Shown here piece after piece: positions 41,322 through 53,978 of a DNA stretch of 64,000 bases. Position 1 is the stretch's first letter; the number at the start of each line of letters is the position of its first letter. Source of the stretch: Anaerolineae bacterium (GTDB lineage: Bacteria; Chloroflexota; Anaerolineae; Aggregatilineales; UBA3940). The position numbers and the translations under genes are program-made. The notes below the pieces were generated by a model. It did no database searches. It was not told the origin of the DNA and was given only the letters and a program-made list of their open reading frames with translations. The DNA is taken from positions 1 through 64,000 of the forward strand of contig JAFGOY010000067.1 of NCBI GenBank assembly GCA_016926255.1, written 5' to 3'.

Positions 41322-42209
41322 TTAAATATCGAGGGCTACTTCGTCCATCTTCTTGTTCTCGTTATTCCAGCTCTGGATCACAGTGGGGACTCGCAAGCCG
41401 GGATTCTCATAGATCGACCGTATCTCCCCAAAGTCAGGCGACTCGCCGGTGGTAAGCCTGGCCGCCCGGTCGAGCAGCGCCCATTCTTCTTCACTGTGAT
41501 CGGGGCCGCCGAGCATCAACCCCCAGCAGTCCCAGGGCAGCAGTTCAACCTTGTTCAGTGCGGCCAGATCGCGCAGCAGGTTGCCTTCGATGAAGTCAAG
41601 CCCGTGCATGTCGAAGATGCCGAACTTCTCCGGGTCGACTTCACCGGCGCGGGCGGGCGTCCAACCCTGACCGGCCACCACAAACTGATCGCGGGGAACG
41701 TCGTTTGTATCGAAGGTGATCTTCAACTGCTCCTGCTGGAAGGTATCCAACTGGGCATCGACCAGCCGCCAGCGTTTCTGACCGGAATCCCAGTATTCGC
41801 CGCTCCAGTGATCCTCGTAATGATCGGGTAAAAAGTACGTTCCGAACCCACAGCGGGCGCGGGCCGGGATTCCTTTGTGCCTAAGCAGGGCAACGAACAG
41901 CACCGAGAAATCGCGGCAGTTGCCGATCAGCTTCTTCTCTAATGGGCGAGCAGCCGTCGAGGGGCGGTCGTCTTTCTCGCGGATGCGGGCCAGCATGTCA
42001 TCCGCTGCGCGGATATTCACTTCGGCCTGTTTGATGCTCTCGTCAGCTTCGACACCATACCTGTCCATCCAGAAAATGTGGATCATCCAGCCCTGGACAA
42101 GCTCACACAATGCGGGGATGTCATCGGGCAGATTGCCGAGCCACTCAGCATGAGCGCTCACGTCGGTCATCACGCCCGGCTGGGCATAATAGGTCAACTC
42201 GTTTGCCAT
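41322..42209 (-). CDS. Transglutaminase-like protein
   Basis: A 295-aa protein with the transglutaminase/protease core. The catalytic Cys is in IGNCRDFSVLFVALLRHKGIP, His in YEDHWSGEYWD, and Asp in WRLVDAQLD. The rest is mostly helical with a C-terminal segment of unknown role. No signal peptide is seen, so it is probably cytoplasmic. AGGAG lies 8 bases before the ATG. Confidence 0.88.
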   Translation of the reverse strand: MANELTYYAQPGVMTDVSAHAEWLGNLPDDIPALCELVQGWMIHIFWMDRYGVEADESIKQAEVNIRAADDMLARIREKDDRPSTAARPLEKKLIGNCRDFSVLFVALLRHKGIPARARCGFGTYFLPDHYEDHWSGEYWDSGQKRWRLVDAQLDTFQQEQLKITFDTNDVPRDQFVVAGQGWTPARAGEVDPEKFGIFDMHGLDFIEGNLLRDLAALNKVELLPWDCWGLMLGGPDHSEEEWALLDRAARLTTGESPDFGEIRSIYENPGLRVPTVIQSWNNENKKMDEVALDI

Positions 42210-42362
42210 CGTTTATTCTCCTGAATACTTTTTATGACTGAGGAACTTCGTCGCGACGTGTGACTATTATAGACCACTTGTTCGGGTGTATCAATGAGCA
42301 AAAAGTGGGATGTTCAGGGAAAACAGGGTAAAATACACTTCCAATCAGATGGTTTTTTTCGG

Positions 42363-42393
42363 CCCTGTCAGCACAGGGCTTTTTGTTTTTTTA
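42363..42393 (+). terminator. Orphan intrinsic terminator before ftsZ
   Basis: A 7-bp stem GCCCTGT/ACAGGGC with a 4-base loop, followed by TTTTTGTTTTTTT. It points toward ftsZ but lies upstream of the ftsZ promoter, and no plus-strand gene lies upstream for 2.9 kb. Confidence 0.8.
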
Positions 42394-42414
42394 TGCAGCT
42401 CGGCCTGTGGTAGT

Positions 42415-42443
42415 TGCGCATTTTGCCCGTTTTGCATAATATG
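42415..42443 (+). promoter_or_regulatory. Probable ftsZ promoter
   Basis: TTGCGC (42415-42420), a 17-base spacer, then TAATAT (42438-42443). It gives an untranslated leader of about 95 bases before the ATG at 42546. Confidence 0.5.
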
Positions 42444-42545
42444 TACCTAACTGCACCTGTGCGAGATTTAAAGCAGCAGTCGAGTATCAACTATAGATTG
42501 GTCGGGGAGGTCACCCGCGTTTCCGGTTGGTTGAGGAGAGAAGCA

Positions 42546-43658
42546 ATGGCGGAGGGAAGTCGAAGGGCACCTATGTCCTATGCGAAGATAAAAGTCATCG
42601 GCGTCGGCGGCGCCGGGAATAACGCAGTAAACCGCATGATCACCGAGGGAATGGCTGGTGTTGATTTCATCACTGTCAATACCGACGCCCAGGCGCTCGA
42701 CGCGTCGCTGGCGAAGACGCGCTTACAGGTCGGCAAGAAGCTCACGCGCGGGCTGGGCGCGGGCGGCGACCCGGAGGTCGGGAGGAAAGCAGCAGAGGAA
42801 TCACGCGAGGAACTGTCGCAGGCGGTTGGAGAAGCAGACATGATCTTCATCACCGCCGGGATCGGCGGCGGAACCGGAACGGGCGCATCGCCGATTATTG
42901 CCGACATCGCGCGGAAGGCGGGCGCGCTGGCAATTGGCGTGGTAACCCGTCCCTTCTCCTTCGAAGGCAGGCAGCGCGAACGCGTCGCCGCCGAGGGAAT
43001 TGAACGCCTTAAAAACGCGGTCGACACCCTGATCGTGATTCAGAACGACCGGCTGTTGAAGATCGTCGACAAGCGGGCGAGCCTGCACGAAGCATTCTCC
43101 ACCGCCGACGACGTGCTCCGGCAGGGCATTCAGGGGATCAGCGAGTTGATTACCGTCCCGGGGCTGATCAACCTCGACTTTGCCGACGTGCGCACCATTA
43201 TGAGCGAAGGCGGCGCGGCATTGATGGCCGTTGGCGCGGCATCCGGCGAGGATCGCGCCCGCAAAGCAGCACAGCAGGCGATTACCAACGAACTGCTCGA
43301 CGTGACGATCAACGGAGCGAGCGGTATCCTGTTCAACGTGACGGGCGGCGTCGACATGAGCCTGTACGAAGTCAACCAGGCAGCGGAGATCATCAAGGAG
43401 ACTGCCGATCCAAACGCCAACCTGATTTTCGGCGCGGTGATCGACGAAGCCATGGGCGATACGATGCGCATCACGGTCATTGCCACCGGCTTCGGGCAGA
43501 TCAGGACGTCGCGGCCACGCTTCCGCACCGAGGCGGTGCCTCAGGATCTTCAGCGCCCGCTGACCATCGACGAGCAGCCCGCTGCCCCGCGTGACTACGA
43601 AGAAAACCTGGAGATGCCCGCCTTCCTGCGGCGGCGCAACCGCGACCAGGGACAGTAG
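42546..43658 (+). CDS. ftsZ: Cell division protein FtsZ
   Basis: A 370-aa tubulin-like GTPase that forms the division ring. Nucleotide-binding motifs: [15 protein letters not shown], the tubulin signature [13 protein letters not shown], and the T7 loop [11 protein letters not shown] with the catalytic Asp. The C-terminal core peptide for partner binding is [15 protein letters not shown] precedes the ATG at 42546 by 8 bases; a second ATG at 42573 is a weaker choice. It is transcribed alone and separate from ftsQA. Confidence 0.97.
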
Positions 43659-51457: not shown

Positions 51458-52972
51458 CTAATTCAGTTCACCGCGTGTGATCGACCGGGTACGTCCAATC
51501 ACCTCCGGCGAGATGCGGCTACCAAACATCTCATTGAATATCCGGTAATAGAGAAGTTCTTCTTTTGAACGCAGCACCACCTCATCCGAAACGCGGCGCT
51601 CACGCTCAAACACCGTATCGGAGATCGTCGCGTTGGCATGCTCCGCCAGCAGGTTAATCGATCCGGCACCATCGGAGAATTTCTGCTTGGGCCGCCGAAC
51701 GATGTTGTCGGGAAGCAAATCGGCTACTGATCGCCGCAAAAGTTCCTTCTCAGGCCAGTCATTTGACTGCATCTTCCATTCCGGGGGAAGGTTGAACACC
51801 AGATCGACCAAGTTTTCATCAAGGAAAGGGACGCGCGCTTCCAACCCGAAGGCCATCGACATACGATCCGCGCGCTGTAGATTGGTGTTGTGCAGGCTGG
51901 ATGTAATGGCCCACAACTCGCGGTGCAGACAGCCGGGATCGGTGAATGGACGGAGATAGGCATATCCGGCAAACAACTCGTCGGCTCCCTCACCGGTGAG
52001 GATCACCTTGACATGATCGGAGGCCAACTGCGCCAGGAAATAGTTGGGAATCGAGCTACGGATCAGAGCCGCATCGAACGACTCCAGGTGATAGATCACC
52101 TCCGGCAGCACGTTGAGCATCTCCTCGAAAGTGTAGATATAGCGATGATGCCGCGCACCGAGATAATCGGCCACCTGCTGCGATGCCTCGATATCCTCAC
52201 TCTCGATCGTGCCAACTACAAATGTATCCAGCCGGTCGCGGCCTTCACGCGCCAGCGCCGCCACAATGCTGCTGTCGAGTCCTCCGCTCAAGCTCACCCC
52301 AACCTTGACCAGATCATCGGCGATCAGGCGCTTTTGTACGGCTTCGCGCAGCGCGTTCTGGATTACCTTCAGGGCATTGTCATCAGGACGGTGCCTGCCA
52401 TCAAGGATGATCGGCGGGTGCGGTTTTTCGAGCCGGGTGTATTTGTCAAAGCCGCTGGCCGAATGCCAGCAGTAGCCGGGGGGAAATTCCTGGATATCAA
52501 CTGTCAGCCAGGCCAGTGATTTGATCTCCGAGGCAAAGTACAGGCGATCATTATGTAAAGACCAGTACAGGGGCTTGATCCCCAGCGGGTCGCGGGCAAG
52601 GAACAGCCCGTTCGAGTCCGAGATCGCAAAGGCAAACATTCCATCGAGCATGGAAACAGCCTCCGGGCCATGAGTCTTGTAGAGCTTAAGGATCACCTCG
52701 GTATCACTATCAGTTGCCACAGCCTCGTCGAAGCAGTCACGCAGATCGCGATAGTTATAGATTTCGCCGTTAAAGACGATCCAGCTATCGCGCTCGGCCA
52801 TTGGCTGCTGGCCTTCAGCCACGTCGAGAATTGCCAGCCGCGAGTGCCCCAGTGTCCCGGCAGGTGTCCCGGCGATGCCCTGCTCGTCCGGGCCACGATG
52901 CCTGAGCATCGCCAGCCCGCGCCCAATTGATTCTGCATCCTCCTCGGGATAAGTCCCCACTATTCCACACAT
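51458..52972 (-). CDS. asnB: Asparagine synthase (glutamine-hydrolysing)
   Basis: A 504-aa protein. The N-terminal glutaminase domain starts with the catalytic Cys2 (MCGIVG) and includes RHRGPDEQG and VFNGEIYNYRDLR. The C-terminal synthase domain has the PP-loop SLSGGLDSSIVAAL and GEGADELFAGY. It makes asparagine from aspartate, glutamine and ATP. The ATG at 52972 has AAGGAG 7 bases upstream; the longer frame from 53065 only reads through the leader. The 5' leader has a structured attenuator. Confidence 0.96.
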   Translation of the reverse strand: MCGIVGTYPEEDAESIGRGLAMLRHRGPDEQGIAGTPAGTLGHSRLAILDVAEGQQPMAERDSWIVFNGEIYNYRDLRDCFDEAVATDSDTEVILKLYKTHGPEAVSMLDGMFAFAISDSNGLFLARDPLGIKPLYWSLHNDRLYFASEIKSLAWLTVDIQEFPPGYCWHSASGFDKYTRLEKPHPPIILDGRHRPDDNALKVIQNALREAVQKRLIADDLVKVGVSLSGGLDSSIVAALAREGRDRLDTFVVGTIESEDIEASQQVADYLGARHHRYIYTFEEMLNVLPEVIYHLESFDAALIRSSIPNYFLAQLASDHVKVILTGEGADELFAGYAYLRPFTDPGCLHRELWAITSSLHNTNLQRADRMSMAFGLEARVPFLDENLVDLVFNLPPEWKMQSNDWPEKELLRRSVADLLPDNIVRRPKQKFSDGAGSINLLAEHANATISDTVFERERRVSDEVVLRSKEELLYYRIFNEMFGSRISPEVIGRTRSITRGELN

Positions 52973-53013
52973 AGTATTCTCCTTAACAGAAAAATCGACG
53001 ATTCCAATGCAAC

Positions 53014-53135
53014 AAAAAAAATGGACCCTGAGCATCCTTGATGCCAGACAGAGCCCATGATTCATGCGGATAGAAACCGTAGGGGATGATACAGGGTCAC
53101 TGCATTCTTTGCAACCAGATGTTCAACATCCCCCC
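53014..53135 (-). promoter_or_regulatory. Candidate attenuator/riboswitch-like leader of asnB
   Basis: Reading the minus strand. P1: GGGGATG (53133-53127) pairs with CATCCCC (53088-53082). Between them a P2 hairpin: GGT-TGCA-AAGAA-TGCA-GTG-ACC (53116-53095). Terminator: GGGCTCTG (53056-53049) with CAGGGTCC (53030-53023), inner stem GCATC/GATGC, then eight T. Antiterminator: GACCCTG (53098-53092) with CAGGGTC, and CATCC (53088-53084) with GGATG (53037-53033). The antiterminator uses both the P1/P2 3' strands and the terminator 3' arm, so the folds exclude each other. It is not a T-box by motif. Confidence 0.72.
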
Positions 53136-53222
53136 AGCGATACCCACTTGCCCCGAATTTAATTTTAGTCCACACTTAGCAATGCAGAGGGATATCAAAA
53201 TTTAATCATTGGAGATGAAAAG

Positions 53223-53978
53223 ATGAAGTTAAACAAATGGTGGCCAGCAGTGGCACTGGTACTACTCAGTCTGTTCTTGACCGGCTGCATCACGATGGAT
53301 ATGACCCTGAGCCTGGGAAGTGACGAAAACTGGGATGTGGTCACCGACATTATCATCGACGAAGATATGCTCGCCATGGCCGAAGAGATGGGCGAAGAGA
53401 TGGATTTCTCCGACCTGGAAGCCGACATGGACACAACGGTCGGGGACATCCAGGACGAGTATGCCAGCCAGGGCATCAGTGCCTCCTGGGAACCGCTCCC
53501 GGCTGAAGGCGAGGATATTGGCTATCGGATGACCGTCAGCGGCCAGGGGTATGACGTTCTCGAAGAAGCCATGTTCGAAGGTGGCGCCAGCTTTACCACC
53601 GGCACCGAAGGCGGTAAGGATGTCGTCTATGCCGAGATCGGGACCAGCCCGTTCGGCGAAGACATGGGCGATATGGAAGGTATGGACGAGATGGGTGCCA
53701 TGATGGACATCGAGTTCCGCTTTACCATCGAAGGTAAAGAGATACTCGAAACCAACGGCACCCTGAGTGATGACGGTACCAGCGTGACCTGGGTGAACAC
53801 CCCCGCCCCATACACCGCGACGGTCGTCACCGGCGGCGGCTTCCCAACCTGGGGCTGGATTGCCATTGCGCTCGTCTGCCTGCTGCTGGTGGTCGTGGTG
53901 ATCGCGGCAGTTGTCGTGATCGTCGTGCTTAGCAAGAAGAAAAAGAAAGAGCAAGAAACAGAGGCACCGGCGGAATAG
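53223..53978 (+). CDS. LppM-like lipoprotein with C-terminal membrane helix
   Basis: A 251-aa protein. The signal peptide ends in a lipobox FLTGC (Cys21). The extracytoplasmic domain (about residues 22-195) is very acidic and Met-rich (MAEEMGEEMDF, MGDMEGMDEMGAMMD). A second membrane helix lies near residue 215 (WIAIALVCLLLVVVVIAAVV), and a KKKKK tail follows. Similar in layout to LppM-type proteins, which I recall only by pattern. The ATG follows GGAG. A terminator follows at 54017. Confidence 0.75.
   Translation: MKLNKWWPAVALVLLSLFLTGCITMDMTLSLGSDENWDVVTDIIIDEDMLAMAEEMGEEMDFSDLEADMDTTVGDIQDEYASQGISASWEPLPAEGEDIGYRMTVSGQGYDVLEEAMFEGGASFTTGTEGGKDVVYAEIGTSPFGEDMGDMEGMDEMGAMMDIEFRFTIEGKEILETNGTLSDDGTSVTWVNTPAPYTATVVTGGGFPTWGWIAIALVCLLLVVVVIAAVVVIVVLSKKKKKEQETEAPAE

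Follow-up and report, generated by a model that had tools for sequence, protein, structure and literature searches.

We place a probability of about 0.55 on the reading that asnB on this contig is preceded by an ordinary intrinsic terminator in its leader, which would lower transcription of the gene by a fixed or loosely regulated amount. This reading draws on the anatomy of the terminator, a divergent upstream neighbour, a default fold in which the terminator is formed and the lack of any conserved or clearly above-chance alternative to it. A transcript would start somewhere within the divergent intergenic region (52973-53222), the nascent RNA would first form a stable upstream hairpin, followed by that of the terminator, and RNA polymerase would stop at the T tract in some rounds of transcription and read through into asnB in the others. 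Expression of asnB would then depend on read-through, presumably with no specific trigger acting on it. Positions are those of the window, i.e. the whole stretch of 64,000 nucleotides that was analysed, and the features concerned are as follows.

51461 to 52972, minus strand: asnB, asparagine synthase B, 504 aa, MCGI start, Shine-Dalgarno AAGGAG
53014 to 53021, minus strand: run of eight T belonging to the terminator, the first of them pairing at the foot of the hairpin
53021 to 53058, minus strand: hairpin of the intrinsic terminator within the asnB leader, 16 pairs, -19.8 kcal/mol, with the T tract after it
53024 to 53037, minus strand: proposed 3' strand of the antiterminator, identical to the terminator 3' arm
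53063 to 53148, minus strand: imperfect upstream hairpin (outer helix, P1 and P2), -32.2 kcal/mol, no copy elsewhere
53084 to 53098, minus strand: proposed 5' strand of the antiterminator (GACCCTGTATCATCC), pairing with 53037-53024 and overlapping the P1 3' strand
53086 to 53114, minus strand: highest-scoring candidate for a sigma-70-like promoter of asnB (TTGCAA-17-TATCAT, start site at about 53079), inside the proposed aptamer
53118 to 53130, unstranded: perfect 13-bp palindrome GATGTTGAACATC, a possible DNA operator or hairpin
53223 to 53978, plus strand: divergent lipoprotein-like gene upstream of the leader, with signal sequence MKLNKWWPAVALVLLSLFLTGC in its translation

The product of the downstream gene scores above the cut-off of the NCBIfam model of asparagine synthase B (PRK09431), in agreement with the first-pass annotation, and contains the Pfam domains Asn_synthase and GATase_7. 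An MCGI N-terminus is typical of glutamine-dependent asparagine synthases. The start codon lies at 52972, with its Shine-Dalgarno sequence in place, and a second terminator (51437-51410) comes after the gene, which is therefore apparently monocistronic. A further open frame begins at an ATG at 53065 and runs in frame through the terminator into asnB (53065-52973, minus strand), without a good Shine-Dalgarno sequence; since the enzyme needs an N-terminal cysteine, this frame is probably meaningless. The product of the neighbouring gene matched no family in a Pfam search. As this neighbour is divergent, the 250-nt intergenic region (52973-53222) must accommodate the leader together with the promoters of the two genes. 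In the genome there are some seven strong genes of the Asn_synthase family (contigs C49, C30, C17, C62 and C15 are among the carriers), and asnB may thus not be the sole asparagine synthase. No such leader was found before the five other family genes of the genome for which a start was found (L108 being left out).

The terminator is the sole feature of the leader that stands clearly above chance. As had been noted from the letters, it is a strong hairpin followed by exactly eight T on the asnB strand (53021-53014); its arms are AUGGGCUCUG...CAGGGUCCAU (53058-53021), the stable GC-rich hairpin stands directly before the T run, and the end of the run lies approximately 41 nt from the start codon. 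A simple terminator scan misses it, probably owing to a 3-nt bulge in the hairpin, whilst a second scan detects it at 53058-53021. Because the upstream neighbour is divergent, the terminator serves no adjacent gene on the same strand. No recognisable promoter was found in the stretch that separates the T tract from the start codon; this and the divergent neighbour together suggest that asnB is probably transcribed through the terminator, and read-through is the likely route to the gene. Moreover, an ordinary terminator is favoured by the finding that the divergent intergenic region before ftsZ, also in the window, has a terminator-like hairpin too. The latter (42361-42380, plus strand; ftsZ is the ORF at 42414-43658) carries T runs on both flanks, with a transglutaminase-like gene (41322-42209, minus strand) on its other side. 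Against an ordinary terminator, a strong one without relief before a biosynthetic gene would be odd, as such arrangements are often regulatory.

One alternative moves the start of transcription. TTGCAA-17-TATCAT is the top-scoring sigma-70-like site on the asnB strand and the sole site in a simpler scan, and the palindrome at 53118-53130 lies just upstream of its -35 box, where it would look like an operator if the site were a promoter. We consider it unlikely that this is the true promoter (53114-53086), with the palindrome as an operator centred near -45, the "aptamer" as untranscribed control DNA and a short leader with a terminator following. If so used, the site would leave the P1 5' strand untranscribed and abolish the proposed aptamer. 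However, about 9% of shuffles hold a site as good, which is therefore not significant, the palindrome recurs in no other intergenic region of the genome and the terminator in the leader would still be unexplained. As a genome-wide operator the palindrome was rejected, its sole other exact copy lying inside a coding gene (C66:11605-11617).

Upstream of the terminator, the first-pass annotation had described a stem P1 enclosing a P2 hairpin. Both are present, with P1 formed by GGGGATG (53133-53127) and CATCCCC (53088-53082) and a P2-like hairpin in between. The hairpin of which they are part (53148-53063) is moderately stable against shuffles (z = -2.8, p = 0.007); 15% of 86-nt pieces drawn at random from the window are as stable (p = 0.15), and for a longer piece (53160-53062) the stability gives p = 0.08. 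The whole 151-nt leader also folds better than its shuffles (z = -2.68), a value to which the terminator contributes. Folding of partial leaders, as a model of the growing RNA, predicts that the upstream hairpin is complete (-32.9 kcal/mol) before the arms of the terminator exist.

The 12-bp complementarity on which a switch had been proposed also exists. GACCCTG (53098-53092) can pair with CAGGGTC (53030-53024) and CATCC (53088-53084) with GGATG (53037-53033), and neither P1 nor the terminator can form together with this pairing. Between the upstream 99 nt and the terminator 3' arm, pairing reaches -19.7 kcal/mol, a value equalled by 8.3% of dinucleotide-shuffled leaders (p = 0.083) and by 3.5% of random window pieces (p = 0.035). 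Pairing with the terminator 5' arm, the usual target of an antiterminator, is unremarkable (p = 0.78). Across 464 kb of the genome (400 kb of genome stretches plus the window, with genes from a simple longest-ORF caller), an upstream partner for the 3' arm at least as strong was found for 5 of 56 terminators (9%); the asnB terminator is itself missing from this set, since the longest open frame of asnB begins at 53065. The complementarity is thus not convincingly above chance. In roughly one in 11 terminators of the genome, upstream sequence could pair with the 3' arm just as strongly, a reminder that pairings which exclude one another come about readily near GC-rich terminators.

Folding energies were computed for the leader and for pieces of it. 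The minimum free energy fold includes the terminator whether the upstream hairpin is present or not. Imposing the antiterminator carries a cost of 19.2 kcal/mol for the full leader and 13.0 kcal/mol for a piece starting at 53137. Given the 19.2 kcal/mol cost and an upstream hairpin that forms first, the leader is predicted to be OFF by default. The local terminator hairpin should also win kinetically, since its 3' arm, the last part to be made, is three bases away from the arm with which it pairs. The cost falls to 1.4, 4.1 and 0.5 kcal/mol in three pieces that lack the P1 5' strand, and near parity of the folds is predicted only when this strand is removed, for example by a ribosome. That the antiterminator and terminator folds would come within 0.5-4 kcal/mol of one another once the strand is withheld counts against an ordinary terminator.

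A ribosome could remove the strand if the leader were translated. The candidate leader ORF, MLNIWLQRMQ, begins at 53129 (with an alternative TTG start at 53126), has one Asn and two Gln codons and ends with a stop codon that overlaps the antiterminator 5' strand. In a lineage-specific attenuator of this kind, a ribosome on the ORF would hold the P1 5' strand and the freed 3' strand would compete with the terminator. Although the near parity just described, the codons of an ORF that ends at the antiterminator strand and the G-rich stretch before it speak for such control, we regard it as rather improbable. The start context is poor, the G-rich stretch abutting the start codon at a spacing of 0-4 nt; the single Asn codon stands in no run of control codons; and the antiterminator would take the 3' arm of the terminator, unlike in classical attenuators. 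A translatable ORF with a run of control codons was therefore not found in MLNIWLQRMQ.

Next, conservation of the leader was examined. BLAST and two single-sequence covariance models, searched against the genome itself and approximately 150 relatives, returned only the copy in the window, as did a covariance model of the upstream hairpin searched against 396 genomes of the class; above 40 genomes the covariance searches apply stricter filters that may miss weak matches, and a model built on one sequence has limited reach. The asnB clade is patchy in the order, the best homologue being 57% identical, and gave no match at E 1e-60 in the eight other family genomes examined, some of them incomplete. 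Among 82 asnB starts from mixed phyla, each with at least 150 nt upstream, a terminator-like hairpin within 200 nt was found at only one (L037) besides the present one. Chloroflexota asnB homologues with readable starts (L136 and L138 left out) showed no leader terminator and no shared element. The first-pass annotation had proposed comparing the stems across the leaders of asnB orthologues and had itself named a lack of conservation as telling against its switch; neither stem nor the terminator is conserved in the genomes examined. In a literature search, no account of an asnB leader from Chloroflexi was found. The asnB homologues closest to this one stand, in several Chloroflexota, directly behind an octopine/nopaline-dehydrogenase-like gene (PF02317; e.g. 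L135:367-1473 and L012:1821-2921). In the present genome asnB stands by itself, and PF02317 is matched once, on a different contig (C19).

This patchy distribution, the missing matches in the eight family genomes and a leader common to no homologue would also suit a terminator at the end of an independent short transcript (a small RNA), or one that is the remnant of a gene lost when asnB arrived, with asnB reached by incidental read-through or from an unrecognised promoter. We think this improbable, as the roughly 41 nt from T tract to start codon leave little space and hold no recognisable promoter, and no gene remnant was found. An ordinary leader terminator, by comparison, is our preferred reading of the same region.

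Known RNA families were sought in the same sequence. At gathering scores the whole window gave no Rfam match other than a tRNA elsewhere, and a permissive search of the leader (E up to 5) gave nothing relevant; low-scoring snoRNA-type matches there were far below the cut-offs and were discarded. A covariance-model search against Rfam, suggested at first pass as a check on the switch, therefore returned no relevant family. In line with the same annotation, the T-box motif TGGNACCGCG was not found within 52973-53222 at up to two mismatches, and the leader contains neither this motif nor a match to the Rfam T-box model.

Taken together, the proposal of a riboswitch or attenuator divides. A generic attenuator stands, in that the leader has a terminator which asnB transcription probably passes; a riboswitch does not, given a chance-level pairing, a 19.2 kcal/mol penalty and no conservation, with no aptamer found again in other operons or in the related genomes searched. 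The asparagine- or nitrogen-linked signal that had been guessed at is tied to the leader by its position before asnB alone. We consider it very unlikely that a lineage-restricted RNA switch, found so far in a single genome, senses asparagine or nitrogen, directly or through a ribosome on the leader ORF, and frees asnB by capturing the terminator 3' arm. A metabolite-sensing riboswitch for such a signal is likewise very unlikely: mutually exclusive pairings do exist before asnB, yet they lie within chance, the ON fold is heavily penalised, Rfam gives no match and, unusually for a riboswitch, there is no second copy in the genome or the relatives searched. If true, an asparagine- or nitrogen-sensing riboswitch would be a new class.

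Finally, the leader can be set beside known systems. T-box riboswitches have been reported from Chloroflexi, where they precede an ile tRNA ligase gene and trp genes (PMC2494555). Like these, the asnB leader places a terminator before an amino-acid gene, but it has no T-box sequence or Rfam model match. With leader-peptide attenuators of the trp/his type it shares a short ORF that overlaps the 5' strand of the upstream hairpin; it differs from them in lacking tandem control codons, in its poor initiation context and in a competing strand that pairs with the terminator 3' arm. In transcriptional OFF riboswitches, a terminator follows a hairpin that can give up its 3' strand to another pairing. 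The asnB leader shares this design, having a hairpin whose 3' strand is able to pair elsewhere and then a terminator, whereas its alternative pairs with the terminator 3' arm at chance level, is disfavoured by 19.2 kcal/mol and comes with no conserved aptamer that we could find. With intrinsic (rho-independent) terminators of 5' leaders it shares a GC-rich hairpin and eight T before the start codon of the gene that follows; it differs in having no demonstrated antiterminator or trigger.
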